From positions 1 through 33,051 of the forward strand of contig ONJS01000030.1 in the NCBI GenBank assembly GCA_900318205.1: a DNA stretch of 33,051 nt, in the 5' to 3' direction. The notes under the pieces are model-generated. The model searched no databases and was not told the DNA's origin. It saw only the letters and a program-made list of their open reading frames with translations. The position numbers and the translations under genes were made by a program. This document shows positions 4,681 through 21,949 of the stretch, piece after piece (the first letter of the stretch is position 1; every line of letters begins with the position of its first letter). The DNA is from an uncultured Prevotellaceae bacterium. Lineage in GTDB: Bacteria; Bacteroidota; Bacteroidia; Bacteroidales; Muribaculaceae.

Positions 4681-4681
4681 A

Positions 4682-4688
4682 AAGGAGG
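4682..4688 (+). promoter_or_regulatory. Shine-Dalgarno-like site before SusD
   Basis: AAGGAGG ends 9 bases before the ATG at 4698. Such a strong site is uncommon in Bacteroidota, where most genes lack one. It supports the chosen start and efficient re-initiation after SusC. Confidence 0.55.
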
Positions 4689-4697
4689 CCAACGACT

Positions 4698-6611: not shown

Positions 6612-6651
6612 TGAATAGTTAATAGATAATAGTTAATAGTTGACAACAATT
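6612..6651 (+). repeat. AT-rich intergenic simple repeat
   Basis: The 40 bases between SusD and the next lipoprotein gene repeat variants of AGTTAATAG. Together with 7699-7785 and 9531-9575 this makes three consecutive Sus-operon gaps filled with short low-complexity repeats. No hairpin is obvious in this one. Confidence 0.5.
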
Positions 6652-7698: not shown

Positions 7699-7785
7699 AG
7701 TTTAGAGTTTAAAGTTTAGAGTTTAGAGTTGGCATCCGCCAGCGAACTAAAGGCTAAAAACTAAGGACTAAGGACTAAAAACTTT
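7699..7785 (+). repeat. Intergenic imperfect hairpin with a GGCATCCGCC centre
   Basis: Copies of GTTTAGAGTTTA (7700-7730) run into GGCATCCGCC (7731-7740). Copies of ACTAAGGACTAA then follow (to about 7785) and pair loosely with the left side. The central ten bases are identical to those in the hairpin at 9531-9575 in the next gap but one. Confidence 0.55.
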
Positions 7786-7791
7786 AAAAAG

Positions 7792-9522
7792 ATGAAGACA
7801 TTCAATAAAATATCATTCATTTTCATGATAGCGATGATGGTTGTATCGTGTATCGACAAGACGCCCGATTACGGCAACTTCGCTTCTAAGGATGTGGACT
7901 TCACCTATCGGGTGGATGATGACCGTTACGGTCTGGACTTCTATGTGGTATCCACTGTGGAGTTCACCAATACCTCATCCAAGTCAGGTCAAGTGAAATG
8001 GGACTTCGGTGACGGCACTTCTTCTACCGAGATGAATCCTTCGCACAAGTATGCCAAGGCTGGTGTCTATCAGGTAACCCTTACTCTTGAGGGCGTGGGC
8101 ACCTGCACCTACCCGCTGCTCATCTACGACATCGCTCCCCTGTTGAGCGTGGCAGAGCAGAGTTCAACCCCCGTGGTCATCAATGACGTGAATGTGAAAC
8201 TCGACATTGAGTTGCCCAATCCCGAGAATCTGACCTGCAAGTATGTGTGGACCTTCCCCGATGGCACCCGTGATGCTCAGGGTAACCTGATATCCACTTT
8301 TGAGGGCTACAGCCATCCTGACGGCACGATTGACAATCCCGGCAAACTGACCTTCAGCAACATCGGTTCGCAGAAGATCACGCTGCAGACGTGGTTTGAC
8401 ATCAACGGCGAGAACCGTCGTCTGGAGGACAGCTATGTTAATGTGCAGGTGGGTTCGTCTATTCCCGCACCCACCCTGTACTATGCAACCCAGGGCGGCA
8501 ATATCATGGCTGTGAAACTGGTGGACCTCTCCAAACTGCCCGCCGGCACCAAGAATCTGCCGTTTGACATGGGCGTGAGCTCGGGCAACATGCCCACTAC
8601 GCTGGTGTTTGCCACCGAGAAGACGGTGACCGAGACTGATGTCATTGAGCAGGACAACGTCTATATCCTGGACTGCGGCAAGCAGTACTATTACATCAAC
8701 GACGAGGCAGGTAACCTGGGTGATGGCAAAATCACCGTCATGAGTGCCGATGGCTCAACGACCAATGTCATGGTCACCAACGTGGGCGGTCCCGCCTTCA
8801 ACGACCCCTTCCAGGGCTGCACCGATGGCACGACCCTCTACTACACCGATCGCAACACGGGTATCCGCACCATGCCGCTCACGGCACGTGGCGAAACCGA
8901 GCAGACCAACTTCAACAGCACGGCTGGCTACTATGTGGTCAACAACCAGTTGAGTTACTATGGCCAGGGTATTGCCTACGGTGCCATCCACACGGGTCTT
9001 TATCTCGACAAGACCGGCATGTTCTGGTGGGGCAAGAACTATTCGGGTAACGGTATCTACCGCTTCCGCCCGAGTGACATCGGCAAGACCGGAACGGGTG
9101 TTCCTATCCCGCATCCCATTGTGCTCGAGACCACGCAGCCGCGTGCCTTCACGCTCGATGAGGACCTGGGCTATCTGTATGTGTGGATGACCAAGGGCAC
9201 CACGCCTGGTGTGGGCTTCACCCAGTATGCCATCCCCGCCGAGAACGCCACGGTGACCTATGATAAGTACATCAACTTCATCACCATGGAGGCCGATCCC
9301 ATCAACACGACCGATGCCGAGGGCGTTTATACCACGCAGTTTGCCGTTGATGCCCAGACCCACTACGTCTATTTCGGCTTCCGTGCCGCAACGACCGAGA
9401 AAACCTATACCACGGGCTTGTACTACTTCAATCCCGATGACGGTAAAGTTTATAACTTTAACGGCAACAAGGACAGGATTCTGGGTGTGTGCATCAATCC
9501 GCGCCTGACCAACCTGTTTTAG
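7792..9522 (+). CDS. PKD-domain surface lipoprotein of the Sus operon (576 aa)
   Basis: The signal peptide ends in a lipobox (MVVSC, cysteine 20), giving an outer-membrane lipoprotein. A PKD-type domain occupies about residues 40-115, with the hallmark WDFGDGTSS near residue 70 and HKYAKAGVYQVTLTL closing it. A second PKD-like segment (WTFPDGTRDAQG) lies near residue 150. The C-terminal 350 residues contain repeated aromatic and Gly-rich strands and could form a propeller-like ligand-binding region, which is inference only. PKD-like lipoproteins are known companions of RagB-type SusD proteins and probably help to capture substrate at the surface. The gene follows a repeat-filled gap and precedes the GHL10 enzyme. 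Confidence 0.85.
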   Translation: MKTFNKISFIFMIAMMVVSCIDKTPDYGNFASKDVDFTYRVDDDRYGLDFYVVSTVEFTNTSSKSGQVKWDFGDGTSSTEMNPSHKYAKAGVYQVTLTLEGVGTCTYPLLIYDIAPLLSVAEQSSTPVVINDVNVKLDIELPNPENLTCKYVWTFPDGTRDAQGNLISTFEGYSHPDGTIDNPGKLTFSNIGSQKITLQTWFDINGENRRLEDSYVNVQVGSSIPAPTLYYATQGGNIMAVKLVDLSKLPAGTKNLPFDMGVSSGNMPTTLVFATEKTVTETDVIEQDNVYILDCGKQYYYINDEAGNLGDGKITVMSADGSTTNVMVTNVGGPAFNDPFQGCTDGTTLYYTDRNTGIRTMPLTARGETEQTNFNSTAGYYVVNNQLSYYGQGIAYGAIHTGLYLDKTGMFWWGKNYSGNGIYRFRPSDIGKTGTGVPIPHPIVLETTQPRAFTLDEDLGYLYVWMTKGTTPGVGFTQYAIPAENATVTYDKYINFITMEADPINTTDAEGVYTTQFAVDAQTHYVYFGFRAATTEKTYTTGLYYFNPDDGKVYNFNGNKDRILGVCINPRLTNLF

Positions 9523-9589: not shown

Positions 9590-12160
9590 ATGAAAAGTAG
9601 ATTCATCCTGATAGCATTACTGGTGGCATTTGTCACCAGTTTTGCGATTTCGGCTACCGATGTCCCGCCCAAGCGTGAGCAGCGAGGCATGTGGATTACT
9701 TCATATCTGAACGACTGGCCCAGCGGAGCCATCACGGCAAGCAACACGCCCATCATGCAGAATGCCTGCCGCAAGATGCTTGATACCTTGCGCGTCAATC
9801 ACATCAATGCGATTTACTACCACGTCAGGGCGATGTGCGACGCGATGTATAACTCGGCCTATGAGCCGTGGTCCAGTTATGTCTCGGGAACCCGTGGTGT
9901 GGCGCCTGCGTTTGACCCCTTCGGCTACCTGATTGAGGAAGCCCACAAGCGGGGCATCGAGGTCTATGCCTGGGTCAACCCTTACCGCTATGGCCATGGT
10001 GACAACATGTGGGGACAGAGCGAATTGGACTACATCCATACCCATCCCGAGTGGCTCTTGACGACCAGCTATGAGACCGTGCTCAATCCAGGCATCCCCG
10101 AGGTGCGCCAGCGTGTGGTGGACGTGTGCAAGGACATTCTGGACAAGTATGATGTTGACGGTTTGGTATTTGACGACTATTTCTACAACCAGGACAACCC
10201 GTCGTTCTCTCTCGATGCCGACCTGTATAATGCCTACAAAGCGGGCGGCGGCACCATGTCGCAGGGCGACTGGCGGCGTGAGAATGTCAACCAGATGGTC
10301 AAGGATGTCAACGACATGGTCAAGGCGACGAAGCCTTGGGTGCGCTTCGGCATCGGTCCTGCCGGTGTGGCATGCACCTCCCAGGCTGTAGCCGACAAAT
10401 ATGGTGTGGAGCCTTGTCCTGTGGGCAGCGACTGGCAGTATAACCAGATTTACAGCGACCCGATGGCTTGGGTGACGCGCGGCACCATCGATTTCCTGGC
10501 TCCGCAGGTTTATTGGAAGACGACGGGCACGTTTACCGGTGTCACGACGTGGTGGGGCAAGATGGCGGCGCGTTTCAACCGCCACATCTTCATCAGCCAG
10601 TGGATTCCCGATGAGGAGGGATGGACACTTGCCGAGTTTGTCAAGCAGGGACGTGTCATGCGTGAGGCAATGGCAGCAGGCGGCAATCCGGGCATGGTCT
10701 ATTTCCGCTACGGCACGTGGCGAAACAAGAAGGAGGTCATCGACGGCAAGGTGCGTCAGTTGCGCACATGGCTCAAGGACAGCCTCTACTCGTCGGTAGC
10801 GTTGAATCCCGCTCCTGCCTGGCTCAGGCCGGACCAGACCTATCAGACGGTCACCAATCTTACCTATAGTGACGGCACGCTCTCGTGGGACAGCATTTCC
10901 AATGTGCGATATGTCGTCTATGCCATCCCCGATGGCGTGGAGGACAAGGACTTCCGCTGCCAGCAGCAGTATATCGACGGTGTGAGTTACTGGGCGTCTT
11001 ACACGCTGCCTAAAAACAAGCGGGAAGGTTACCGCTATGCCGTGACCATTCTCGACCGTTGGGAGAATGAGTATGCACCAGTGATGCCGGGTGTTATGCC
11101 CAGTCAAGCCGCCAAGCCCATCCTGCTCTATCCCGAGGACGGCGGTGAAGTATCGGAACTCTCGTCCCTGCAATGGGATGGTGACGGCATCAACTATGTG
11201 GTGCAGGTCTTTGCCGATGAGCAGATGAATGTGCTTGTGGCTCAGGTCGAGGTGGACTCGATGAGTTGCCCCCTGACCAAGGTGCCGGGCCTCAAGGCAG
11301 GTACCTATTGGTGGCGCGTGGTGGCACGCGGCCTCAACCAGTGGGACAATGCCAGCGACCTGCGCCAATTCACCTTGGGGCAGATGCGCATCACTTCTCC
11401 TGGCGATGCTGCTACGTCTGTTCCCTTGATGCCTGTCATCACATGGACACCGGGAGCACCAGGCACTTCCTATGTGCTTGAACTGTCCACCCTGGCAACG
11501 ATGAACAACCCTGACACCATCTGCCTGACCGAGGCGCAGTGGCAGGTGCCCAAGTATAGGCTGGCAGGCGCCACGACCTATTATGCCCGTGTGACGGCGA
11601 CCTATGGCAGTTCCACGGTAGTGACCCCCATATCGTCGTTTACGACCCTTGAGGTCATCCCACCTGTACCCGTGTTTATCGTTCCCGGTGAGGCTGATAC
11701 GGTACTGTATAATACCGATGTGGTGAGTTTTGAACCTGTAGAGGGAGCCGGGTCGTTGAGGGTGCAAATCAGCAGTTCCACCTCTTTCCCCACGCGCTCT
11801 TCTTACAACGGCACGCTTGAAGGCACATTTGAGACTCCTCAATTGGGCACTATCAAGGGAACCGGCAAGTTGACCGACGGTAAGACGTATTATGCCCGCG
11901 CCCGTTATGCTTATCGCACGCTGGCCACGGGTACGACGGTACAGTATACCGACTACTGTGACATCCGTTCATTTGTCTATCATGAGGTGATAACAGGTGA
12001 TGTGAACCGTGACGGTGAGGTCAATATTGCCGATATCAATACGGTCATTGACATCATCCTTAGCGGTCAGGCAGTATCCAATCCCTTTGCCGATGTGAAT
12101 CGTGATGGCGAAATCAATATTGCCGATATCAATGCCATCATTGATATCATTCTCAATTGA
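9590..12160 (+). CDS. Secreted GHL10-family glycosyl-hydrolase-like protein with C-terminal dockerin pair
   Basis: The protein has 856 residues. A signal peptide (about 1-22) precedes a glycosyl-hydrolase-like 10 (DUF187/YngK-type) domain at about 27-380. This domain is recognisable from QRGMWITSYLNDW at the start, VYAWVNPYRYG, and DGLVFDDYFY at 190-199, where the acidic residues are the likely active-site region. Four beta-sandwich (FN3-like) segments follow, starting near residues 425, 509, 601 and 693. The end (803-855) is a duplicated EF-hand-like dockerin: GDVNRDGEVNIADIN and ADVNRDGEINIADIN. The substrate is unknown; family members are suspected of acting on bacterial cell-wall or other glycans. 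It is the last gene of the Sus operon, followed by a strong hairpin, and the first of six consecutive dockerin-ending genes. Confidence 0.9.
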   Translation: MKSRFILIALLVAFVTSFAISATDVPPKREQRGMWITSYLNDWPSGAITASNTPIMQNACRKMLDTLRVNHINAIYYHVRAMCDAMYNSAYEPWSSYVSGTRGVAPAFDPFGYLIEEAHKRGIEVYAWVNPYRYGHGDNMWGQSELDYIHTHPEWLLTTSYETVLNPGIPEVRQRVVDVCKDILDKYDVDGLVFDDYFYNQDNPSFSLDADLYNAYKAGGGTMSQGDWRRENVNQMVKDVNDMVKATKPWVRFGIGPAGVACTSQAVADKYGVEPCPVGSDWQYNQIYSDPMAWVTRGTIDFLAPQVYWKTTGTFTGVTTWWGKMAARFNRHIFISQWIPDEEGWTLAEFVKQGRVMREAMAAGGNPGMVYFRYGTWRNKKEVIDGKVRQLRTWLKDSLYSSVALNPAPAWLRPDQTYQTVTNLTYSDGTLSWDSISNVRYVVYAIPDGVEDKDFRCQQQYIDGVSYWASYTLPKNKREGYRYAVTILDRWENEYAPVMPGVMPSQAAKPILLYPEDGGEVSELSSLQWDGDGINYVVQVFADEQMNVLVAQVEVDSMSCPLTKVPGLKAGTYWWRVVARGLNQWDNASDLRQFTLGQMRITSPGDAATSVPLMPVITWTPGAPGTSYVLELSTLATMNNPDTICLTEAQWQVPKYRLAGATTYYARVTATYGSSTVVTPISSFTTLEVIPPVPVFIVPGEADTVLYNTDVVSFEPVEGAGSLRVQISSSTSFPTRSSYNGTLEGTFETPQLGTIKGTGKLTDGKTYYARARYAYRTLATGTTVQYTDYCDIRSFVYHEVITGDVNRDGEVNIADINTVIDIILSGQAVSNPFADVNRDGEINIADINAIIDIILN

Positions 12161-12180
12161 TAGCCACTAACTATCTGATA

Positions 12181-12221
12181 AAGAAAGTGTGACCGGGTTT
12201 CCCCTGCTGTCACACTTTCTT
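12181..12221 (+). terminator. Transcription terminator hairpin closing the Sus operon
   Basis: AAGAAAGTGTGAC (12181-12193) pairs perfectly with GTCACACTTTCTT (12209-12221) around a 15-base loop. Only a short T-rich stretch (TGTTTC) follows. Its position 20 bases after the GHL10 stop and before a fresh promoter supports a terminator role. Confidence 0.75.
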
Positions 12222-12250
12222 GTTTCGGTCACTAAATCGTTGGTTTTCCA

Positions 12251-12282
12251 TTTGGACACTAAGGAGGTTTGAAGTATATTTG
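12251..12282 (+). promoter_or_regulatory. Consensus Bacteroidota promoter for the CotH-like gene
   Basis: TTTG at 12251-12254 and TATATTTG at 12275-12282 are separated by 20 bases, a full match to the -33/-7 consensus. The ATG at 12292 lies only 9 bases after the -7 box, so the leader would be a few bases at most. Confidence 0.75.
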
Positions 12283-12291
12283 CAGTGCAAT

Positions 12292-13890
12292 ATGAGACGA
12301 TTGCTGCAACTGATATTGGTAATTGTGTTGGCAGGGTGTTTCCATCATGCCAGCGCTCAGCGTGCCCTTGCGCCAATGAACCCAAGGGTGACGCTCACAT
12401 CGACCAATCTCCCTATCGTCTGGATTAATGTGGATAGCGTGGTTAACCGCGACGAGAGGGTCACGGCGCGCATGAAAATCATTGACAATGGAGCAGGCCA
12501 CACCAATTATGCCGACACGATTTCCCATCCAGGGCAACGTGTGGATTACGAGGGTTATATCGGCCTGCGTTATCGTGGTAATTCGTCCTATCTGTATAGT
12601 GCCAAGAAGCCGTATTCTTTCCGCCCGCTGAACCGTCCCCTGGAGGAGGGTGGAACCTGGAAGCGCGTGTCGATCCTGGGCATGCCTAAAGACAACAACT
12701 GGGCGATGCTTGCTCCCTATAACGACAAGAGCATGATACGAGACATCCTTGCGTTTGAGATTTCCAGGCCATGGATGGAATATACGCCACAGGGACGTTT
12801 CTGCGAGGTAATCTGCAATGATGTTTATTACGGCGTTTTTCTCTTGTGCGAGGTGGTTTCCAAGGGGGCAAACCGACTCAACCTTGAAAGCCCAGGCGAG
12901 TCGGGTGATGAACTCACCGGTGGCTACCTGATGGAGGTGGACCGTAACGAGGGTAATTGTTATCGTTCCTGGTATCTGCCTGTCCGCAGCGATGGTAGCG
13001 TGATCTCGACGACTTACATCTATTTCCAGTACAAGTATCCCGAGTATGAAGACTTGACAAGTGCCCAGATGACCTATATTCAGGACCGCATCTACGAGAT
13101 GGAACGCACCTTTGCCAATTATACTTTCCGCGACAGCCAGTCGGGCGAGTGTCTCTACATTGATGAGATGTCGTTTATTGATTACCAGTTGGCGATGGAG
13201 ATATCGCACAATGTGGATGCTTATCGGTTGAGTTGCAAGTTCTTCAAGCACCGCGACAGCGTTGACCCGCGATTTAAACTGGTCGTTTGGGATATGAATC
13301 TGGCTTATGGTAATGCCAATTACAATGAAGGTTATCGCACTGACACATGGGCCTATCAGATGAACAATATTCTGCCTGAGAGACTCTCAACCGACATGGT
13401 GCCCTTCTGGTGGTATAAACTCAACAAAGAGGCCAAATACAAGCAGCACCTCAAGGAGAGATGGGTGCAATACAGGCGCAGCAACTTGCGCATCGACAGC
13501 TTGATGGCAAAGATTGACTCGCTGGCGACGTTGTTGACCGTCGGCGGTGCCGAGGAGCGCAATAGCCGAGCCTATCCTGTCTGGGGAATCTATGTCTGGC
13601 CCAATTACTATATCGCCAGGGATTTTAATAGTGAAATCACTTTTCTTAAACGTTGGCTCATTGACCGCATCATGTGGATGGATAAGCACTTGGACTATGT
13701 GCCCGAGTTGCAGAGCGGCGATGTGAACGGTGATGGTGAGTTGGGAATTAATGACGTCAATGCATTGATCAACGTCATCGGTGGAGGCAGCAGCGATGAA
13801 GGCGAGCGATCCAGGGCTGATGTGAACGAGGACGGGGAAGTCAACGTCAATGATGTCAATGCCCTGATCGATCTGATTGCCGGTTTTTAG
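12292..13890 (+). CDS. CotH-kinase-like secreted protein with C-terminal dockerin pair
   Basis: The ATG at 12292 gives a 532-residue protein starting with a signal peptide. LAGC at 13-16 is a good lipobox, so it may be a lipoprotein, although SASAQ-type cleavage near residue 23 is also possible. The CotH kinase-like fold (about residues 40-460) shows GLRYRGNSSY, HNVDAYRLSCKFFKH and FKLVVWDMNLAYGN. The last matches the family's conserved W-D metal-binding segment. CotH proteins are atypical secreted kinases first described in Bacillus spore coats; the substrate here is unknown. Residues 476-531 carry two dockerin-like repeats (GDVNGDGELGINDVN, ADVNEDGEVNVNDVN), more divergent from the others in the cluster. 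An upstream frame extension crosses the promoter and is unlikely. Confidence 0.88.
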   Translation: MRRLLQLILVIVLAGCFHHASAQRALAPMNPRVTLTSTNLPIVWINVDSVVNRDERVTARMKIIDNGAGHTNYADTISHPGQRVDYEGYIGLRYRGNSSYLYSAKKPYSFRPLNRPLEEGGTWKRVSILGMPKDNNWAMLAPYNDKSMIRDILAFEISRPWMEYTPQGRFCEVICNDVYYGVFLLCEVVSKGANRLNLESPGESGDELTGGYLMEVDRNEGNCYRSWYLPVRSDGSVISTTYIYFQYKYPEYEDLTSAQMTYIQDRIYEMERTFANYTFRDSQSGECLYIDEMSFIDYQLAMEISHNVDAYRLSCKFFKHRDSVDPRFKLVVWDMNLAYGNANYNEGYRTDTWAYQMNNILPERLSTDMVPFWWYKLNKEAKYKQHLKERWVQYRRSNLRIDSLMAKIDSLATLLTVGGAEERNSRAYPVWGIYVWPNYYIARDFNSEITFLKRWLIDRIMWMDKHLDYVPELQSGDVNGDGELGINDVNALINVIGGGSSDEGERSRADVNEDGEVNVNDVNALIDLIAGF

Positions 13891-13951
13891 CCCCTTAGCC
13901 AAAAGCCGTTGGGTGACCGATTGGCCATTGAAAAAAATTGAATAAAAGTCG

Positions 13952-13981
13952 TTGAGCATAAGGATTTTATTTGTAACTTTG
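13952..13981 (+). promoter_or_regulatory. Promoter for the first paralogous dockerin gene
   Basis: TTG (13952-13954) lies 19 bases before TAACTTTG (13974-13981). The start codon at 14041 is 59 bases beyond, leaving room for a leader of about 54 bases. Confidence 0.65.
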
Positions 13982-14040
13982 CTTGATTAACGGATAATAT
14001 AATGACAAAAACAATATAACTAACTAAAAAACAATCGTTT

Positions 14041-15435
14041 ATGAAGAAATTTTTACTCTCCTTTCTTTTAATTGCTTCTAGCGTGGCTGCAGCATGGGCT
14101 GTGACCGATGGGGTGGCCTATGAACGCGTTAACGACATCGGTATCAAGAACCTGTGGATTCAGGACCGTGCACACACTTCTGAAGTGTGGTCTAACCAGC
14201 CCTATTGCAATACCAGTGCCCGCACGGCGGTGATGAAGGACGGCTATATCTACATTGCCCGTTCTAATGCCAATACCGTCATTCAGGGTACCGATACTTT
14301 GGCTCAGAGTGTGATTTACAAAGTTAATGCCGCTAACGGCGAGTTGGTCAAGGAACTGGCTCTGACATTGGACGGCGAGATCTATGGTGGCGCTACCTTG
14401 AGCAGCAACACGGTGGGCATGGATAACTTTGGCCACCTGTTCATGGCACCCTTCTCCAGCAACCTGGCTACAACCCAGCCGGTTTACATGGTGGACAAGG
14501 AGACGGGCGAATTGACCTTGATCGCCGAACTCGACAAGGGTGATGCCCTGCAGCGTTGCGACTACATCGATGTGATGGGTGATATCACCCGCGAGGAGGC
14601 CGAGTGCAACATCATGACTGTGGGCGCCAGCTCAGAGTATATCTATCGCTGGCATGCCGACCAGGGCGACGATTTCTATGGTGGCTTTGATGGTGACCCC
14701 TATCTCGCTATCTTGGACTTCTATCCCGAGACCGTTGTACAATGGGGCTATGCTCCCGTTGTCAAGATGGTGCTTGGCGAGGATGAGGATACCCGCTACA
14801 GTGGCGAGTTGTTCTACATTGACGGCTTTACCACAGCGCCCATTCTCTATGACGTGACGGGTACTAAGGTGGAGGACTTCGAGAACGTGGATCCCGCATT
14901 CTGGCCGATGGACGTTGGTGCTAACGGTGTGTGTGAGTTCACCCTCGACGGCCGCAACTTCATCGTCTTTGTCGCTGCCCAATATACTGGTGTTGACGAG
15001 GCAACCATGGTCAACAAGGCCTGCCAGGTTTACATCTGTGAACTGGGTGAGGGTATGACCCTCGAAGGCATGCAGCGCTACTGGATGGTGCCCGATGAGT
15101 TGGGTGCCGTGAGCGACGGTGGTACGCGTGTCCAGAGCATGAACGTTGAGTATGGCGTTGATGCCGAGGGCAACGAGGAAGTGACCCTGTTTATCTTCAA
15201 GTGCTATAACGGTATGGCGGTTTACAAGATCGGTTCCAACGTCTATGGCGACGAGCCGCAGCCTGTCAAGCCCGGTGATGTAAACGGTGACGGCGAGGTG
15301 AACATCGCTGACGTCAATGCCGTAATCGACATGATTCTGTCAAATAAGCCTTCGGCTTCGGGCGACGTGAACCGTGACGGCGAGGTGAACATCGCCGACG
15401 TCAATGCCGTTCTCGACATGATTTTGAACGCTTGA
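14041..15435 (+). CDS. Secreted dockerin protein of unknown family, paralogue A (464 aa)
   Basis: A signal peptide (MKKFLLSFLLIASSVAAAWA) leads into an unrecognised domain of about 390 residues. It contains several repeated beta-strand patterns (DGYIYIARSNANTV, PVYMVDKETGELTLIAEL, SGELFYIDGFTTAPILYDV), which look like propeller blades. That fold is a guess. Residues 412-464 are two dockerin-like repeats, GDVNGDGEVNIADVN and GDVNRDGEVNIADVN. The next gene (15560-16948) is a clear paralogue with the same order of motifs: EEAECNIMTV, FDGDPY, RYSGE. A strong terminator lies between the two. The function is unknown. A role in binding or displaying a surface ligand is possible but not supported by any catalytic motif that I can see. 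Confidence 0.85.
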   Translation: MKKFLLSFLLIASSVAAAWAVTDGVAYERVNDIGIKNLWIQDRAHTSEVWSNQPYCNTSARTAVMKDGYIYIARSNANTVIQGTDTLAQSVIYKVNAANGELVKELALTLDGEIYGGATLSSNTVGMDNFGHLFMAPFSSNLATTQPVYMVDKETGELTLIAELDKGDALQRCDYIDVMGDITREEAECNIMTVGASSEYIYRWHADQGDDFYGGFDGDPYLAILDFYPETVVQWGYAPVVKMVLGEDEDTRYSGELFYIDGFTTAPILYDVTGTKVEDFENVDPAFWPMDVGANGVCEFTLDGRNFIVFVAAQYTGVDEATMVNKACQVYICELGEGMTLEGMQRYWMVPDELGAVSDGGTRVQSMNVEYGVDAEGNEEVTLFIFKCYNGMAVYKIGSNVYGDEPQPVKPGDVNGDGEVNIADVNAVIDMILSNKPSASGDVNRDGEVNIADVNAVLDMILNA

Positions 15436-15443
15436 TATGACTT

Positions 15444-15457
15444 CCGCCTGATGGCGG
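15444..15457 (+). other. Small hairpin after paralogue A
   Basis: CCGCC (15444-15448), a TGAT loop and GGCGG (15453-15457) form a compact 5-bp GC stem just before the large terminator, with no T-tract of its own. It may add to termination or stabilise the 3' end. Confidence 0.5.
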
Positions 15458-15469
15458 CATGATATTATT

Positions 15470-15524
15470 GCCCGCGGATTGCACGGGGTGTACACCACAT
15501 CCGCGTCAATCCGCGGGCTTTTTT
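15470..15524 (+). terminator. Strong intrinsic terminator between the paralogous genes
   Basis: GCCCGCGGATTG (15470-15481) pairs perfectly with CAATCCGCGGGC (15507-15518), followed by six Ts (15519-15524). The loop contains the palindrome GGTGTACACC (15487-15496). CGCGGAT (15473-15479) could instead pair with ATCCGCG (15499-15505), so a competing fold exists. Confidence 0.9.
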
Positions 15525-15559
15525 AAACCAACAACTGAAATCCAAAATTCTACACTGCA

Positions 15560-16948
15560 ATGAAAAAATTATTACTTCTTTCTGTTACAATGCTCGTTGC
15601 TACTTTGAGTATGATGGCGAAGACCGACGGTCAGACCTATCCCGAAGTGAACGGCATCAAAATCGTGAATCAATGGATATTTGACCGCGTACACAGCGGT
15701 ACGGATTATACCGAAAATGTCATCTGCAACCAGCGTGCACGCACTGCGACGATGGATCAAGGCATCATCTATGTGGCGCGCAGCGAGGAGAAGGCGATCA
15801 TTATCGGCAATGATACCATTTCCCAGTCGGTTATCCACCGTTTCTCGGTGGCCGATGGCCATCAACTTGAAGACCTGCCCCTGTATCTTGACGGCCAGCC
15901 CTATGGACGTTTCCTGGGTGTAGCGAGCATCGGCAGGGACAGTTTCCACCACATCTGGGTGGCTCCCATGACCAGTACTGCCCAGCAGTATGTACCTGTC
16001 TATCTGGTGGATACCGAGACGGGTGAATTGACGCTGGTTGTGGAAATGGATAAAGGCGACGCGCCCCAGCGAACCGACTACCTTGACATCATCGGTGACC
16101 TGACGCTTGAGGAGGCCGAGTGTAACATCATGACTGTGTCGGGTTCAACGGCCGACCCCGGCTTCCCCACGTTGTATCGCATGCACGCCGACCAGGGTGG
16201 CGAATGGGAAGGCGGCTTTGACGGCGACCCCTATATGGATGTCATCAATTTCTACCCCGAGACCAAGACGGGCTTCTCCCTGGCTCCTGTCATCAAGATG
16301 ATTGAGGGTCCCGATGAGGACTCGCGCTATAGTGGTGAGATGTTCTATATCGACTGCTTTGACACGGCACCGGTGGTGTACGACTTCTCGGGCTCGGTCA
16401 TTGATTCGTTTGAGGATACTGATCCTGAATTGTGGCCTCAGTCCCAGCCCAACGGTTGCATTGAGTTCAAGTTGGAAGGTCGTGACTTCCTCGTGTATGT
16501 CAACGCCGATATGAACGGTAACGGCCATGGTTGCCAGGCCAACATCTGCGAGTTGGGTGAAGGTCAGTCATTGGGCGGCATGACCAAGTACTGGAAGATT
16601 CCTGCCGACAGCCTGGGCAAGGTGAACGACAGCGGTCTGCGCGTGCACTGCTTTGCTGTGGATTATGGCGTTGATGACGAGGGCTATGAGGAGGTGACGC
16701 TGCTCACCTTCAAGGCCTATAATGGCATGGCGGTCTATAAGATTGGCCGCAACGTGAGTGCTGGCGAGGAACCCCAGGGCACACCTGGTGACGTGAACGG
16801 TGACGGCGAGGTGAACATTGCCGACGTCAATGCCGTGATTGACCTGATTCTGTCGGGTAAGACTACAACTGCCGGAGATGTAAACCATGACGGCGAGGTG
16901 AATATTGCCGATGTAAATGCCGTGCTAGATTTGATATTGAAAGCATGA
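15560..16948 (+). CDS. Secreted dockerin protein of unknown family, paralogue B (462 aa)
   Basis: This is a tandem paralogue of the preceding gene. The two share the mature start (TDG), QSVI, ETGELTLV, MDKGDAPQRTDY, EEAECNIMTV, GGFDGDPY and a YNGMAVYKIG segment just before the dockerin. The signal peptide is about residues 1-20. Residues 410-462 hold two dockerin repeats: GDVNGDGEVNIADVN and GDVNHDGEVNIADVN. The central domain is not one that I recognise and shows no obvious catalytic residues. No -7 box is visible in the 35 bases after the terminator, so expression may depend on readthrough. Its stop overlaps the start of the next gene (ATGA), implying translational coupling with the NAGPA protein. 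Confidence 0.85.
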   Translation: MKKLLLLSVTMLVATLSMMAKTDGQTYPEVNGIKIVNQWIFDRVHSGTDYTENVICNQRARTATMDQGIIYVARSEEKAIIIGNDTISQSVIHRFSVADGHQLEDLPLYLDGQPYGRFLGVASIGRDSFHHIWVAPMTSTAQQYVPVYLVDTETGELTLVVEMDKGDAPQRTDYLDIIGDLTLEEAECNIMTVSGSTADPGFPTLYRMHADQGGEWEGGFDGDPYMDVINFYPETKTGFSLAPVIKMIEGPDEDSRYSGEMFYIDCFDTAPVVYDFSGSVIDSFEDTDPELWPQSQPNGCIEFKLEGRDFLVYVNADMNGNGHGCQANICELGEGQSLGGMTKYWKIPADSLGKVNDSGLRVHCFAVDYGVDDEGYEEVTLLTFKAYNGMAVYKIGRNVSAGEEPQGTPGDVNGDGEVNIADVNAVIDLILSGKTTTAGDVNHDGEVNIADVNAVLDLILKA

Positions 16949-19308
16949 GAAAAACGCTCTTTTTGACGGCCTTTGTCCTGCTGCTGGCGTCGGCAACAGG
17001 CAATGCCCGTGACCAGTGGGTCATCGGTGACAAGGCCTATGAGGTGGACACGCTCATTTTCCCGCATCTGGCGGGACCGGGCGTGACGGCTGCCAAATAT
17101 GACATCCCGGCTTTGCCGCTCAAGGTGAGCGTTGTCGAGATGGACTTGACCAATCCCTATATCATGATGGAAACGTGTCTGGGCGGCGAGAAGTCGGTGG
17201 CGTGTGAGACGCCTGTCAATATGGCGACACGCAACACGCGGCCTGGACATGAAGTGGTGGGTGCCGTCAACGGCGACTTCTTCATGACCTCACCGACCAA
17301 CGAGGTGGGTCTCCCCTTGAGTGGCCAGGTGCGCAACAACGAACTGGTCCTCAGCAGCCATAACCGTGCCTGCCTGGTGCTGGATAATGACAAGCGCCCC
17401 TATATCGACCGCTTGACGTTCACGGGCACGGTGACGAGTGGCGACCATTCGTTTGCGCTCAATCTGGTGAACCGCATGCGTTACGCCTATGAGAACATCG
17501 CTGCCAACCAGTCTTTCCTGTTTACCCGCAGTTATGGCCCGGTGACCTACGACGGCTCCAACTCGGGCAAGATGGTGCTGCTGCGTCCTGCCGAGGGCGA
17601 TTTCCGCTGGAATGCCAACGGCGTGGAGCATTGTGTCATTGAGGATATCTTTGACGCTCAAGGCTCAAGAACGATTCCCGACGGCAAGGCTATTCTGTGG
17701 CTCAAGGGCACCTATGCCAATCAGACGGCATGGATGTCGGTGGGCGATGTGCTGGACATCAGTTTCAGGCTCACACTCAACAACGGTCCGCAGGATGTGA
17801 ATATCGATCAGCTCATCGGTGGCAGCAACCACATCATCATGCAGAACGGTCAGTTCATGGAGGACTGGGCAGAGCGCCATCCCCGCACTGCCATCGGTTT
17901 TAATGCCGACAGTACGCGCCTCTATTTTGTTGTGGTGGACGGACGTCACATGACTTCGGTGGGTGTGACGCTAAAGGAGATGAAAGGTATCTTTGACGCA
18001 TTGGGTGCTGTCAATGCCGTGAACCTGGATGGTGGCGGTTCGTCGTGCATCCTGGTCAATGACGAGGTGCTGAATCATCCCAGCGACGGCCCTGTGCGCG
18101 CTGTGGGCAACGGCTGCCTGTTTGTTTCGACTGCCCCCGAGGACGACGAGATTGGCATCATCAGTTTTGAGCCCCGTTGCTACAACCTGTCGATATCGGC
18201 AACCACATCATTTGGTGTGTGGGGCTATAACCAATATGGAGTCTTGAAGACGCGCGACCTGCAGGGCTGCACTTTCTCGTGTGACGAGCAGGTCGGATAC
18301 TTTGATGATGAAGGTAACTTCCATGCGGTGTCAACACCTGCTACGGGCAATCTTTATGTAACCTACAATGGCGTCACAGCCACTCAGCCCGTAACGATTA
18401 TGGAGGCGCAGTGGCAACTGGTGAGCGACAGCGTGGTGGTTGACCGTTTTCATCCCTATGCCATCAACATCAACGGCATCAGTGGCTATGGACTGGACAA
18501 GGTGGACCCTTCGGTAGTGGCTTGGGCTTCGTCCAATGAAGAGGTGTGTACTGTTGACGACCAGGGTATTATCACTGCTGTCGCTGATGGTCAGACCTTT
18601 GTGGGCTCAAGCCATCCCCTGCTTGCCGATTCGTTGCTGGTGCGTGTCGAGAACCCTAAAGGACACGTTACCTCAATAGAAAATGCCCCCATCGACCCCG
18701 CCACATGGGAAATTACCCAGAGCGGTGGCAAGGATAGGGTAGTAACGGCGCTTGACAATGGCCTCCAGATAGACTTCACAGGCTCATCGTCCCGCAATCC
18801 TTACCTCAAGATTGCCAAGGCGGTGCAGATGTGGGGACTGCCCGATACTTTGCGCCTGAGAATGAGGCCTGGTGACATACAGCTCAAGACCGTCAAGATA
18901 CTTGTCGAGACGGCCTATGGGGAGCGCGTCACCGCCGAGCTCCCCATTGAGGAAGCCAATGACGAGATTACGATAGATGTTCCGGCCAGCAGTTTGTGTG
19001 ATGCTGCCGACTTGGGAAATTTTCCCCTGCATCTCGTGTATTACTACATCACCTATAGCGCCGTCACCTCTGGCGCGCAATGTAGCCTGCAGATTCCTGG
19101 CATGGAACTCGTCTATGCCAGCATGCCGCCCGATGAGCATCCGCTCACTGGCGACGTGAATGTTGACGGCGAGGTGAACATTGCCGATGTCAATGCCGTC
19201 ATCGACGTGATTGTATCGGATGCATCGCTGCCCATTGCCGATGTGAACGGGGATGGCGAGGTCAATATTGCTGACATAAATGCCGTTATTGACATCATCC
19301 TCTCGTGA
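16945..19308 (+). CDS. Secreted phosphodiester glycosidase (NAGPA) family protein with dockerin pair
   Basis: The 787-residue protein begins with a signal peptide (about 1-21, ending GNA). A NAGPA-type domain (about 85-395) carries NGDFF at 109-113, TAIGFNADSTRLYFVVVDGR, and the hallmark NLDGGGSS (aspartate 362). Enzymes with this domain remove sugar from phosphodiester-linked glycans, for example the GlcNAc-phospho cap in lysosomal enzymes; in bacteria the targets include cell-wall polymers. Ig-like segments follow (about 400-480 and 496-575; SNEEVCTVDDQGIITAVADG resembles bacterial Ig-like domains), then a beta-sandwich. Two dockerin repeats occupy 736-787 (GDVNVDGEVNIADVN, ADVNGDGEVNIADIN). 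The start overlaps the previous stop by 4 bases. Confidence 0.9.
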   Translation: MRKTLFLTAFVLLLASATGNARDQWVIGDKAYEVDTLIFPHLAGPGVTAAKYDIPALPLKVSVVEMDLTNPYIMMETCLGGEKSVACETPVNMATRNTRPGHEVVGAVNGDFFMTSPTNEVGLPLSGQVRNNELVLSSHNRACLVLDNDKRPYIDRLTFTGTVTSGDHSFALNLVNRMRYAYENIAANQSFLFTRSYGPVTYDGSNSGKMVLLRPAEGDFRWNANGVEHCVIEDIFDAQGSRTIPDGKAILWLKGTYANQTAWMSVGDVLDISFRLTLNNGPQDVNIDQLIGGSNHIIMQNGQFMEDWAERHPRTAIGFNADSTRLYFVVVDGRHMTSVGVTLKEMKGIFDALGAVNAVNLDGGGSSCILVNDEVLNHPSDGPVRAVGNGCLFVSTAPEDDEIGIISFEPRCYNLSISATTSFGVWGYNQYGVLKTRDLQGCTFSCDEQVGYFDDEGNFHAVSTPATGNLYVTYNGVTATQPVTIMEAQWQLVSDSVVVDRFHPYAININGISGYGLDKVDPSVVAWASSNEEVCTVDDQGIITAVADGQTFVGSSHPLLADSLLVRVENPKGHVTSIENAPIDPATWEITQSGGKDRVVTALDNGLQIDFTGSSSRNPYLKIAKAVQMWGLPDTLRLRMRPGDIQLKTVKILVETAYGERVTAELPIEEANDEITIDVPASSLCDAADLGNFPLHLVYYYITYSAVTSGAQCSLQIPGMELVYASMPPDEHPLTGDVNVDGEVNIADVNAVIDVIVSDASLPIADVNGDGEVNIADINAVIDIILS

Positions 19309-19333
19309 GAAGGCTTTTTCAAATTGTTTTTAC

Positions 19334-19341
19334 TACCTTTG
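19334..19341 (+). promoter_or_regulatory. Putative -7 box (TACCTTTG) for the C10 peptidase
   Basis: TACCTTTG matches TAnnTTTG 40 bases before the ATG at 19382. A T-run at 19315-19319 is the only -33 candidate, at shorter than usual spacing. Confidence 0.5.
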
Positions 19342-19381
19342 CGCCATTATTTGACCTTAGGACATTTTACGAATTCTGATT

Positions 19382-21949
19382 ATGAAGCGAATACTATTCA
19401 TCTTAGCCATTGCGATGGCAACGTTTTACAGTCTGCAAGCGGCTTCAATCAACGAGGCTGAAGCCCGCCAAGTGGCCGATAAGTTCTTTTCAGTCCATTC
19501 TTCACGCATGATGGCTCCGGCTGCACAGCCAGAGGTACATCTTGCCTATACTGCCGAGCGTGGACGTTTTTATGTCTATGATCGTGGCCGTAACGGCGGC
19601 TTTGTCGTTGTTGCCGGCGATGACCGCTTGCCACAAGTGTTGGGCTATGGCGATAAGGGAGATTTTTCAACTTCCGCTCTGCCTTCATCACTGCAGTACT
19701 GGATGAAAGAGATGAACAGGCAAATCGAATTCATGCAGTCACATGAGGACGTGGTGGCTTACCAGCCTGTCAAGCGGGCTGCGGCTGTCGGTCCCCTCAT
19801 GACTACCCTTTGGGATCAGGATGCTCCGTACAATGACCTTTGCCCGACATACACCGATGGCAATGGCGTTACCAATCGTGCCGTGACAGGATGTGTGGCT
19901 ACCGCCTTTGCCCAGGTGATGAATTATCACCAGTGGCCCTCGGTCGGCCAGGGAAGCCATTCCTACGTCTGCAATGTGAATGACATGACAGTTACTGAAC
20001 TCAGTGCCGACTTCAGCCAGTCACAATATCGCTGGGATTTGATGCTTGACAGTTATAATTCCAGCAGCAGTCCCGAGTCCTGTGAGGCTGTAGCCAAGTT
20101 GATGTCAGATGTGGGCATTTCAATGGATATGGGCTATGGCAGCAGCAGTGGCGCTTCTGAGCGCGCCGCCATGAATGCGATGAAGCGTTATTTCAAGTAT
20201 GGTGACAACTGTTATCTGGTTGAACGTGACTACTTTAGCGCTGCTGAGTGGGATCAGATGCTGACGGATGAACTCAGCGCCCGCAGGCCTATCGTCTATT
20301 GTGGCTATGATCTTTCAGGTCAGGATGCTGGAGGACATGCTTTTGTGTTCGATGGCTTTAACATTGATGGCTATTATCATGTCAATTGGGGTTGGGGAGG
20401 TTCCTATGACGGCTATTTCCTCTTCTGGGTGCTTAATCCCGGAAAATATAATTTCAATTACATACAGGATGCAGTTCTTGGCCTTGTCCCTGAGACGCAG
20501 AATGATGACGTCAACAAAGTCCTGTACGTCCGCAGCCAGTTGGTGCCCAAGACACCTTCGGTGTCGTTGGGTAGCACAATCACCATGACTATGGATAACT
20601 TCACTGCTGTGGGCAATATGTTGGATACGGCAGGTTACGATCAGCGAGACAACCGTAAGATGTACTATGCCTTGATTCCGATGTCATTAGGCGTCTTTGG
20701 CGAGAATGGTGTGGAACGTCAGAATCTGCACTTTGATTACAAGAAATACCTGGACGACCATTGGTGGTCTTCAGGACAATATCTGTACCTTGATGTGTTG
20801 AATTCGCTGGAGGATGGTGAGTATAAAATCAAGTTGGCTTATTCCATCGATGGCGGTGAGCACTATGACCAGAAAGTGCTGGACTTCAGCGGCAAGGAAT
20901 TGTATGTCAAGATGCTGGTGAGCAATGGCGTGGCCTATCTGAAGGATTGCTTCTTGTCTAACACCTATACTGTGGATTCGTTTGTCGTGCCTAGCGGCAT
21001 CATGGTCAACGAGACGATTGATGTGGATGTCAACATGACCTATCATGTTTGGTATAATGAGGATGGCCCGGTGGGTAATGTTTATCTGGCAATGGTGCAG
21101 GACGGCAACGAAGTGACTACCAGTGAAATGCGCGAGGTAATGATTCCCGGCAATACGGTGCAGAACTATCCGATGCAGATCACTGCCCCCGCCGAATGGG
21201 GACGCTATGACTTGGTACTGAAAGATGAGAGCGGCAATGATTTGCTCTTTATGGACGATTGGTACAGTGGCGGTTCCGAGTTCAAGGTGCCCGTCTTTGT
21301 TCTGCCAATCTGCAACCAACTTGCCGAGGACTTTGAGTCGATGGAAGCCAACAGCAGCACAAACGCTAAACGTGTCGAGGGTCAGTTTACCACATGGAAC
21401 TTTACTAAGTGTGGTGTTCGTGCTCCGGGTGAGGGCCGCTGCAATGGCGAACACTCCATCATGATGAAGAAGGCCAGCTCGTTCTGCAACGATCAGCCCC
21501 TTCGTGGCAACTTCTTTATGGCTCTGGCAAATATCTTCAACCAATCGGCCAGTGCAGCCAAGTACACGCTGGAGTATTCACTCGACGGTGGCAATACGTG
21601 GCAGAGGGCTTATGATATCGATGACCGCGAAGCCATTGATGTGCCCGAGAAGAGCACAGTCAATGCCATGTGGATGCTTCATCTGACGGCCGCTCAGCCT
21701 GCCATCTTCCGTGTCGCCATGATAGCCGGCTCGGCAGCTACCTATATTGATGACTTTGCCCTCTATCATACCGAATCGGCTGTCGGTGATGTGAACAGCG
21801 ATGGCGAAATCAATGTTGCCGACGTCAACATGGCCATCGATATCATCTTGACACTTGACACATTGCCTGCTGCCGACGTGAACGGTGACGGTGAGATCAA
21901 CATCGCCGACATCAATGCCCTTATCGACATGATCATGGGCTTATCTTGA
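19382..21949 (+). CDS. Secreted C10-family (streptopain-like) cysteine peptidase with dockerin pair
   Basis: This is an 855-residue secreted protease. The signal peptide (about 1-20) is followed by a Spi/C10 prodomain (about 22-120, with RFYVYDRGRNGGFVVVAGDD) that keeps the enzyme inactive. The catalytic domain (about 135-375) has the nucleophile Cys171 in TGCVATAFAQVMNYHQWP, His319 in GGHAFVFDGF, and the following WGWGG. The Cys-His spacing of 148 equals that of streptopain (192 and 340). A long C-terminal part contains beta-sandwich segments, one resembling a jelly-roll (LAEDFESME to IDDFALYHTE, about 650-798). Dockerin repeats end the protein at 802-855: GDVNSDGEINVADVN and ADVNGDGEINIADIN. 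No separate inhibitor gene is nearby. It could process surface partners or host proteins; the target is unknown. Confidence 0.93.
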   Translation: MKRILFILAIAMATFYSLQAASINEAEARQVADKFFSVHSSRMMAPAAQPEVHLAYTAERGRFYVYDRGRNGGFVVVAGDDRLPQVLGYGDKGDFSTSALPSSLQYWMKEMNRQIEFMQSHEDVVAYQPVKRAAAVGPLMTTLWDQDAPYNDLCPTYTDGNGVTNRAVTGCVATAFAQVMNYHQWPSVGQGSHSYVCNVNDMTVTELSADFSQSQYRWDLMLDSYNSSSSPESCEAVAKLMSDVGISMDMGYGSSSGASERAAMNAMKRYFKYGDNCYLVERDYFSAAEWDQMLTDELSARRPIVYCGYDLSGQDAGGHAFVFDGFNIDGYYHVNWGWGGSYDGYFLFWVLNPGKYNFNYIQDAVLGLVPETQNDDVNKVLYVRSQLVPKTPSVSLGSTITMTMDNFTAVGNMLDTAGYDQRDNRKMYYALIPMSLGVFGENGVERQNLHFDYKKYLDDHWWSSGQYLYLDVLNSLEDGEYKIKLAYSIDGGEHYDQKVLDFSGKELYVKMLVSNGVAYLKDCFLSNTYTVDSFVVPSGIMVNETIDVDVNMTYHVWYNEDGPVGNVYLAMVQDGNEVTTSEMREVMIPGNTVQNYPMQITAPAEWGRYDLVLKDESGNDLLFMDDWYSGGSEFKVPVFVLPICNQLAEDFESMEANSSTNAKRVEGQFTTWNFTKCGVRAPGEGRCNGEHSIMMKKASSFCNDQPLRGNFFMALANIFNQSASAAKYTLEYSLDGGNTWQRAYDIDDREAIDVPEKSTVNAMWMLHLTAAQPAIFRVAMIAGSAATYIDDFALYHTESAVGDVNSDGEINVADVNMAIDIILTLDTLPAADVNGDGEINIADINALIDMIMGLS

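Follow-up and report, generated by a model that had tools for sequence, protein, structure and literature searches.

The window analysed here, meaning the whole stretch of 33,051 nucleotides, carries six consecutive forward-strand genes whose products end in a dockerin (Table 1). The proteins were scanned against Pfam, in which the type I dockerin family Dockerin_1 (PF00404) has a curated cut-off of 22.9 bits. All six scored above this cut-off, and every dockerin ended 1–3 residues before the stop codon, as had been claimed in the original prediction for a run of six proteins with a terminal dockerin-type module. The labels given there to four of them (GHL10, CotH-like, NAGPA and C10 peptidase) were all borne out by Pfam matches. 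Paralogues A and B, described as a related pair, were 56% identical, and the Pfam scan placed no family above cut-off in either except the dockerin.

Table 1. Genes of the dockerin run and the genes preceding it, with Pfam matches and dockerin positions in the window.
Feature	Position	Strand	Open frame	Pfam match	Dockerin	Dockerin_1 (bits)	Dockerin end to stop (residues)
GHL10 (glycosyl-hydrolase-like 10) secreted protein	9590..12160	+	9590-12160	GHL10 2.5e-54	11996-12157	35.8	1
CotH-kinase-like protein	12292..13890	+	12220-13890	CotH 3.2e-37	13717-13887	32.2	2
Paralogue A	14041..15435	+	14041-15435		15274-15432	37.2	2
Paralogue B	15560..16948	+	15560-16948		16787-16945	34.7	2
NAGPA phosphodiester glycosidase	16945..19308	+	16945-19308	NAGPA 1.2e-30	19150-19305	26.7	1
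C10 peptidase with I69 inhibitor domain	19382..21949	+	19382-21949	Peptidase_C10 3.1e-67, Inhibitor_I69 2.7e-23	21785-21946	30.4	3
Upstream co-oriented genes (SusC-like TonB receptor, SusD-like_2 protein, gene without Pfam match, PKD protein)	1585..9522	+

The GHL10 protein begins with what resembles a type I signal peptide. The frame of the CotH-like protein is open from a TTG codon at 12220, the ATG at 12292 being the more likely start, and a possible lipobox (LAGC) was picked up close to its N-terminus using a crude regular expression. The NAGPA protein contains a Big_2-like region that scored 21 bits, under the Big_2 cut-off. A structure model of paralogue A made from a two-sequence alignment was too poor for use (pLDDT 35). 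No T9SS C-terminal sorting domain was detected in the six proteins using Pfam and a tail profile (A3).

The upstream gene block, separated from the first dockerin gene by 67 bases, gives the locus a PUL-like context. With SusC- and SusD-like genes directly upstream on the same strand, the run could be read as a plain PUL, its six products being periplasmic or surface enzymes of the SusC/SusD system and their dockerins functionless relics. This is extremely unlikely, as both motifs of the duplicated calcium loop are legible in all six window dockerins, the dockerin sequences are uniform in type throughout the genome, and dockerins persist in all 19 genomes of the genus that were searched, with 29 to 146 scored matches each.

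The genome to which the window belongs (G000) gave at least 151 dockerin matches, and 150 of 312 candidates were scored. Contigs C16 and C18 each have, in the stretches read, six dockerin genes lying close together on one strand, and the run in the window is not unique within the genome. Type I-like signals were recognized by a crude regular expression in 85 of 96 cargo proteins. The cargo was scanned with Pfam for 91 of 108 dockerin proteins, the longest 17 being left out. In the 25 of 45 families listed, LRR, peptidase, CotH and nuclease domains figured prominently, GH53 and GH32 appeared a single time each, and no cellulase was among them.

The check proposed in the original prediction, to look for cohesin-like scaffold proteins, yielded candidates. 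A cohesin profile (A1) was built here from 26 domains and gave 14 matches in G000, compared with 2 by the Pfam cohesin model, which found a cohesin in one of the five scaffold and adaptor proteins scanned from this genome. The matches lie on contigs C23, C26, C32, C39 and C46 and are scarce beside the 150 or more dockerins. When A1 was compared with the PDB, the sole matches under E 0.01 were cellulosomal scaffoldin cohesins (5n5p, 9.6e-7; 6kgc, 3.7e-6; 6kg8, 4.1e-6), unrelated proteins turning up above E 0.1. The structure of L125, an adaptor of a relative, was predicted with a pLDDT of 87.7 and searched against the PDB using Foldseek. The best 50 of 117 matches (E ≤0.001) were all cohesin or scaffoldin/cohesin by title, with a best E of 3.8e-8 and a TM by target of up to 0.78. 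The dockerin of L125 was modeled with three helices (block pLDDT 85–94, last block 68). The profile matches and the cohesin beta-sandwich predicted in the relative suggest that the domains of G000 are likely to be divergent cohesins. A tailed protein of 3264 residues on contig C39 of G000 was also suspected as a scaffold and was rejected, having no cohesin match.

The architecture of the cohesin proteins was tallied for 83 frames whose 3' end was visible, from 18 genomes of the genus. Of these frames 53 ended in a tail of 45–84 amino acids, 19 in a dockerin and 11 in neither. Tails resembling the T9SS type A sorting domain are found on most of the larger cohesin proteins. Among 52 tails, 27 matched TIGR04183, the T9SS type A sorting domain, at E ≤0.1 and 25 did not; Pfam Por_Secre_tail matched 9 of the 52 (E ≤0.1), and DUF6383 matched 11 cohesin-protein tails. 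The C32 protein of G000 carries three cohesins and a tail with a weak DUF6383 match (0.0016) and no NCBIfam model; up to six cohesins were counted in genomes G010 and G011. Each of the 15 named loci was found through one cohesin protein, and in every case another cohesin protein, with a tail, lies ahead of it; the protein used for finding carries a dockerin at 14 of the 15. The small adaptors consist of one cohesin and one dockerin and are encoded beside the scaffold. No CBM was found using Pfam (E ≤0.01) in the five scaffold and adaptor proteins of G000, two of which lack the N-terminal end in the stretch read. A putative multi-cohesin scaffold and dockerin-bearing enzymes, one of the combinations by which a cellulosome is recognized, were found in one organism. 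The evidence for a T9SS consists of the C-terminal tails and of the translocon protein SprA, which is full-length on contig C24 of G000.

Cohesins and dockerins were compared across genomes. A1 matches were present in 19/19 genomes of the genus and in G021, and absent from 11 other genomes of the order, the same 11 that had 0–1 dockerins. Order-wide, dockerins were found in 21 of 22 cohesin-positive genomes versus 86 of 247 overall (Fisher p 6e-10); 14 of the 21 genomes with both had just 1–6 dockerins, and part of the co-occurrence is within-protein linkage because in some genomes (G239, G123 and G092, for example) a dockerin of the list and a cohesin share one frame. G022 (1 dockerin) and G023 (0 dockerins) each gave an above-cut-off score with the Pfam cohesin model.

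Dockerins of G000 were sorted by regular expression into two main types (78 and 27 of 108), and all six window dockerins fell in the 27. The adaptors encoded on contigs C23 and C26 have the window dialect too. Species of the same genus differ in their dialects, and the enzymes and cohesin proteins of any one species have theirs in common. A sample of 6 window and 20 non-window enzymes, the latter being top-scoring Pfam matches, was compared with cohesin-linked dockerins. The nearest of these was in the same genome for 18 of the 26 enzyme dockerins (mean with shuffled labels, 1.7), a result to which gene duplication inside genomes may have contributed; the five G001 enzyme dockerins were all nearest to G011. 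The original proposal, an assembly at the surface or secreted that uses a single docking type, is supported by the candidate cohesins on proteins with T9SS-like tails or dockerins and by the fold predicted for a relative. It is qualified in that the genome has two main dockerin types, and the window dockerins all belong to the minority one.

The modules might instead be non-cellulosomal calcium-binding or adhesive domains, with the cohesin-like domains as ordinary Ig-like spacers and no specific docking. Such a reading would fit the 7 of 14 order genomes that have at least 8 scored dockerins and no A1 cohesin, the very large frames in which some dockerins lie, and the cohesin-like modules known from enzymes outside cellulosomes (PDB 2jh2, 2w1n and 2vo8). 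We consider this very unlikely in view of the cohesin entries matched by the adaptor model, the joining of cohesin and dockerin in a single small adaptor encoded next to the scaffold, and the co-occurrence and dialect matching described above.

Tailed proteins at 34 loci, chosen for their best tail matches and not a random sample, were compared with dockerin proteins, and 17 of the 34 matched one at 1e-5. Seven NAGPA-type queries and one CotH query, the latter 24% identical to the window CotH protein, aligned up to or near the boundary, and in a sister genus the C-terminus of a NAGPA homologue is a T9SS tail, at the place taken by the dockerin in the window protein. The C10 matches covered mainly the catalytic region, and no boundary swap was seen in them. 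A genome census was considered as further evidence of tail replacement and rejected. Tail counts in the own genus, 3–14 in a first count and 7, 11 and 15 in a second, at first seemed low against 30–131 in 10 of 12 genomes from other families; in 56 sister-genus genomes of the same family the counts ran from 0 to 81, many of them 2–20. Because G041, G242 and G150 combine few tails (6, 5 and 18) with 1, 1 and 0 dockerins, a low tail count is no evidence of replacement.

The suggestion in the original prediction that the module is a secretion or anchoring signal may thus be partly true, the dockerin occupying the place of the T9SS tail in homologues. In its full form this would make the dockerin itself the export or anchoring signal, read by the T9SS or another machine and replacing the tail one for one, and not mainly a cohesin ligand. 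The exchange in NAGPA and CotH homologues agrees with such a signal, as do the position of the dockerin within 8 residues of the protein end in 88 of 108 G000 dockerin proteins, the retention of SprA in 17 of 19 genomes of the genus, and the finding of tail (A3 profile) and dockerin together in just 3 of the 108, two of these being cohesin proteins. A signal for a conserved machine should, however, be conserved, and the dialects vary between species of a genus, in most cases agreeing with the cohesin-linked dockerins found in their own genome. Furthermore, 20 of the 108 dockerins lie more than 8 residues from the end, cohesins and dockerins co-occur, and few tails are common in sister genera, three of these genomes having at most one dockerin. 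A direct signal is for these reasons unlikely.

The reading we prefer, with a probability of about 0.8, is that a T9SS-anchored cohesin-dockerin assembly on the surface of a rumen-type Bacteroidales bacterium takes up the six proteins as cargo, as the sequence comparisons and structure models suggest. Sec would take cargo and scaffold into the periplasm, and the T9SS would move the scaffold over the outer membrane and anchor it there. The calcium-folded dockerins would plug into scaffold and adaptor cohesins, and peptidases, glycosidases, CotH-like and LRR proteins would in this way be brought together on the cell surface. Certain lineages would have exchanged the T9SS tail of the enzyme itself for a dockerin. 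It is possible, though doubtful, that the dockerin also serves as an outsourced secretion tag, tail-less enzymes docking in the periplasm on a few tailed scaffolds and crossing the T9SS translocon as pre-assembled complexes. A single exported scaffold would then bring out many dockerin proteins, and co-export by such hitchhiking would account for homologous enzymes in which one and the same position is occupied by either a tail or a dockerin.

In clostridial and ruminococcal cellulosomes, many secreted proteins bear type I dockerins, and the system is completed by scaffolds with several cohesins, by cohesin-dockerin adaptors and by an anchor to the cell surface. The putative assembly would share this layout of dockerin, scaffold, adaptor and surface anchor with the cellulosomes of C. 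thermocellum and R. flavefaciens. The assembly differs from clostridial and ruminococcal cellulosomes in its Gram-negative host, a T9SS-like tail as anchor, five own-genome scaffold and adaptor proteins without a CBM by Pfam, a listed cargo with many LRR, peptidase, CotH and nuclease families, and cohesins mostly missed by Pfam. T9SS type A cargo is resembled by the cohesin-protein tails and by homologues of the window enzymes; the window enzymes, unlike such cargo, end in a dockerin without a tail. The R. albus and R. bromii-type systems belong to Bacillota, hosts that are not known to have a T9SS. Like G000 they have far more dockerins than cohesins (PMC6118326). A Ruminococcus example includes LRR_5-dockerin, dockerin-peptidase and cohesin-dockerin proteins, with non-cellulase LRR and peptidase cargo as here (PMC7480376).

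For rumen Bacteroidetes, published metagenome studies (moose, cow and camel) describe dockerins carried by CAZymes and by other proteins (PMC7480376, PMC6071333, PMC7260996). Bacteroidetes genomes with cohesins are tabulated in two papers: the camel bin Bin136, which has 5 dockerins and a gene with tandem cohesins (PMC6071333), and the Prevotellaceae genome RUG606, which has a two-cohesin protein (PMC5830445). A 2020 bovine rumen catalogue reports Bacteroidetes MAGs with dockerins and no recognizable cohesin, and leaves open whether the cohesins were too divergent to see (PMC7260996); a 2020 rumen study terms the role of Bacteroidetes dockerins undefined (PMC7480376). These papers concern the same phylum and habitat and, in the portions available, give counts only, whereas scaffold and adaptor architecture, T9SS-like tails, genus-wide presence and dialects are described here. 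In a literature search confined mostly to journals outside subscription, no description of T9SS-tailed cohesin scaffolds in Bacteroidales was found. Within that coverage dockerins and a few cohesins of rumen Bacteroidetes are already published, with no description found of the scaffold and adaptor architecture.

The answer offered to the dockerin puzzle is that every one of the 19 genomes searched in a single Bacteroidales genus encodes divergent cohesins, which sit mostly on small adaptors and on proteins whose tails resemble those of the T9SS. Should binding be confirmed, this would be a cellulosome-like assembly in a major polysaccharide- and protein-degrading gut phylum and a source of new orthogonal cohesin-dockerin pairs, and the route by which tail-less dockerin enzymes reach the Gram-negative cell surface would become a question.

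The six frames named in the original prediction were all open, and their translations look secreted. The paired C-terminal dockerin was recovered on every one by Pfam Dockerin_1 (26.7 to 37.2 bits, cut-off 22.9), and the GHL10, CotH, NAGPA and C10/I69 domains were each found at the position claimed. The distance from dockerin to stop was 1, 2, 2, 2, 1 and 3 residues for the GHL10, CotH, paralogue A, paralogue B, NAGPA and C10 proteins, respectively; the two paralogues were 56% identical. Co-oriented genes upstream (5') encode a SusC-like receptor, a SusD-like_2 protein and a PKD protein, and one further gene there has no Pfam match. The CotH protein carries a candidate lipoprotein signal that could alone serve as an anchor, and a further secreted-looking frame is cut by the window end (Table).

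The genome of the window (G000, 3.62 Mb; the window is its contig C41) held at least 151 Dockerin_1 matches, with 150 of 312 candidates scored. Among the 31 genomes searched, scored matches numbered 29 to 146 per genome in the 19 of the same genus; in the 12 others of the order there were 0 or 1 in 11, and 38 in G021. In G000, 86 unique dockerin proteins could be read as far as their stop, and in 72 of them the dockerin lay 1-6 residues before it; in a larger set of stretches 88 of 108 proteins ended within 8 residues of the dockerin. As these stretches were picked because they contain dockerins, both figures inform on position only. N-termini of 96 complete dockerin proteins were sorted with a crude regular expression into type I-like signals (85), lipobox-like (5, the window CotH protein among them) and neither (6). 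A Pfam cargo scan covered 91 of the 108 proteins (the longest 17 were omitted; adaptors and scaffolds were counted in). Dockerin_1 was found in 85, and the 25 of 45 families listed included LRR_5 (17), C10 peptidase (10), CotH (8), subtilase (4), endonuclease I (3), NAGPA (2), starch-binding CBM26 (2), GH53 (1) and GH32 (1), with no cellulase family among those listed. In several proteins the dockerin is internal: the chain continues to the C-terminus for about 240-260 residues (for more at C25), over a region that resembles a sulfatase-modifying-factor-like (FGE) domain; Pfam confirmed FGE in 3 of the 91.

Table. Coordinates of features in G000, the window and comparison loci
Feature	Location	Strand
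CotH protein with candidate lipoprotein signal LAGC	window 12292-13890	+
Secreted-looking protein, cut by window end	window 31922-33049	
Tailed 686-residue cohesin protein	G000 C32:45134-47194	
Additional partial SprA-like stretch, one in-frame TGA	G000 C26:68953-70302	
L081, 3264-residue protein, TIGR04183-matching tail	G000 C39:27770-37564	minus
L064, scaffold-like proteins carrying eight and five cohesins	G021 C25:208000-224000	
Dockerin with FGE-like C-terminal region	G000 C17:34490, C20:19071, C25:107452, C30:129282, C31:186020; loci L126, L129, L131	

The original prediction called for a search for cohesin-like partners, and candidates were found. With the Pfam Cohesin model G000 had two matches (E up to 1), of which one exceeded the cut-off. 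At that locus a 686-residue protein combines three cohesin-like domains with an internal dockerin and a tail, and adjoins a 213-residue cohesin-dockerin protein. A profile built from five such domains retrieved further cohesins at other loci, and an alignment of 26 domains (A1) was made. Against solved structures A1 matched cellulosomal cohesins best (5n5p, 9.6e-7; 6kgc, 3.7e-6; 6kg8, 4.1e-6); these alone fell below 0.01, with unrelated proteins above 0.1. The small adaptor of locus L125, from a related genome, modeled with ten relatives in the alignment (pLDDT 87.7), is predicted to form a beta-sandwich followed by three helices. In Foldseek the best 50 of its 117 matches (E up to 0.001) all had cohesin or scaffoldin/cohesin titles. 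Pfam detected cohesin in one of five G000 scaffold or adaptor proteins, and such poor detection could be the reason for few cohesins in Pfam-based surveys.

Every one of the 19 genus genomes had A1 matches (1 to 15 apiece; 14 in G000), and so did G021 (24); the remaining 11 order genomes of the 31-genome set had none. Thirteen of the genus genomes contributed no row to A1, so the matches there are free of circularity. In an order-wide set of 247 genomes, dockerins were present in 86 and A1 cohesins in 22, of which 21 had dockerins (Fisher p 6e-10, an association due in part to within-protein linkage, since in some genomes, among them G239, G123 and G092, a listed dockerin shares its frame with a cohesin). 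The exception, G062, had a partial match of 41 residues. Fourteen of the 21 genomes with both modules had merely 1-6 dockerins. Eight or more dockerins were scored in 14 genomes, of which 7 (G068, G107, G119, G128, G131, G203 and G250) lacked an A1 cohesin and perhaps use the dockerin fold differently. Several listed dockerin matches in these seven begin at profile position 8 or later, in very large frames. Pfam Cohesin was above cut-off in G022 and G023, with 1 and 0 dockerins.

Fifteen loci were named, with taxon labels of Prevotellaceae, Muribaculaceae, Bacteroidales, Bacteroidaceae or Porphyromonadaceae; isolate names of the RUG (as used in the available text of PMC5830445) or RGIG type point to ruminant guts for 14, and one has no stated source. 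At all 15, the cohesin protein through which the locus was retrieved comes second, after a protein with a terminal cohesin and a 49-74-residue tail. This second protein carries a dockerin at 14, within 5 residues of the stop at 11 and followed by about 245 further residues at L126, L129 and L131. In G000 and at 10 of the 15 loci, the tailed scaffold has a divergent internal dockerin flanked by two of its cohesins. Among 83 cohesin frames with the 3' end in view (18 genus genomes; three further frames were cut and lie outside the 83), 53 ended in a 45-84-residue tail, 19 in a dockerin and 11 otherwise. At E up to 0.1, 27 of 52 tails matched TIGR04183, the type IX secretion (T9SS) type A sorting domain, and 9 matched Pfam Por_Secre_tail; DUF6383 was matched by 11 of the 52. 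Of the 19 genus genomes, 17 had the translocon protein SprA, which is full length in G000 (C24), where a partial SprA-like stretch also occurs. A profile of the cohesin-protein tails (A3) matched between 3 and 29 tails in each genus genome, with 9 for G000. The very large tailed protein L081, near a cohesin-dockerin protein on C39, gave no cohesin match. In L064, from another family of the order, the ends of the scaffold-like proteins resemble T9SS tails by eye.

Dockerins also occur where relatives have a T9SS tail. When 34 tailed proteins of other genomes (tail removed) were compared by BLAST with 88 G000 C-terminal dockerin proteins (dockerin removed), 17 gave matches. Window NAGPA was 36% identical over 490 residues, reaching the boundary, to L190 (G289, same family), which continues into a YPNP-type T9SS tail; a G000 NAGPA paralogue was 38-42% identical to six other tailed proteins. 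Window CotH matched tailed L042 (24% over 459 residues), and C10 matches covered the catalytic part only. Dockerin and A3-profile tail occurred together in 3 of 108 proteins, two of them cohesin proteins. A census argument for tail replacement failed: sister genera are tail-poor too, three with at most one dockerin.

Dockerins were sorted into dialects by the residue after the second calcium-loop D[VIMLF]. The 108 G000 proteins comprised 27 N-type, 78 T/S-type and 3 others, with no protein of mixed type; the N-type includes all six window dockerins. The window-type DNA pattern [VIM]NIAD[VIM]N had 81 occurrences in G000 and between 26 and 81 in each of six more genus genomes; a further two of the genus had 3 and 1, and the remaining ten, like the 12 genomes outside the genus, had none. 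Its reversed control gave 0 in every genome. Retrieved cohesin proteins bore the motif in five of the seven motif-rich genomes (G000, G006, G007, G017 and G018; exceptions G002 and G009) and in none of 11 motif-poor genomes with retrieved cohesin loci (G013 left out). For 26 enzyme dockerins of five genomes (six window, 20 top Pfam hits) compared with 73 cohesin-linked dockerins, the nearest was from the same genome in 18 (shuffled-label mean 1.7; 0 of 2000 shuffles reached 18), for which within-genome duplication could be a partial source. For the five G001 enzymes the nearest dockerin came in every case from G011, of the same dialect; four window dockerins were nearest to the G000 adaptor at C26 and two to G006. 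It is possible that T9SS reads the dockerin directly, a reading with which species-specific dialects sit badly.

Rumen Bacteroidetes dockerins are already published, with function termed undefined in the available text of PMC7480376. As far as the accessible parts of these sources extend, PMC7260996 catalogues no recognisable cohesin in rumen Bacteroidetes genomes and raises excessive divergence as a question, and PMC9177762 places cohesins in Firmicutes_A bins only. Accessible sections of PMC6071333 mention cohesins in certain Bacteroidetes and tabulate the Bacteroidetes Bin136 (5 dockerins, 1 cohesin entry), one of the bins said to have two to four cohesins in tandem, along with Bin129 (2 cohesins, no dockerin), and those of PMC5830445 list a two-cohesin protein in RUG606 (Prevotellaceae); these count against novelty. 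A term search of the accessible text of a 2025 cellulosome review returned neither Bacteroidetes nor Bacteroidota, and no description of T9SS-tailed cohesin scaffolds was found in the literature searched, mostly outside subscription journals.

The system is rated a variant of the cohesin-dockerin kind, differing from a strict-sense cellulosome because Pfam found no CBM on the five G000 scaffold or adaptor proteins tested and the cargo families listed include no cellulase. On the best-supported reading, with parts backed by sequence and predicted fold, the six proteins would belong to a surface assembly built on cohesin-dockerin pairs and anchored by way of T9SS. The scaffold would be anchored by this route, and the dockerin enzymes would dock onto cohesins of the assembly; docking, surface location and the sequence of events are inferred. 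The enzymes bear Sec-type signals, which leaves the outer membrane to cross. Docking in the periplasm, followed by export together with the scaffold, would fit, and agrees with the exchange of tail and dockerin.
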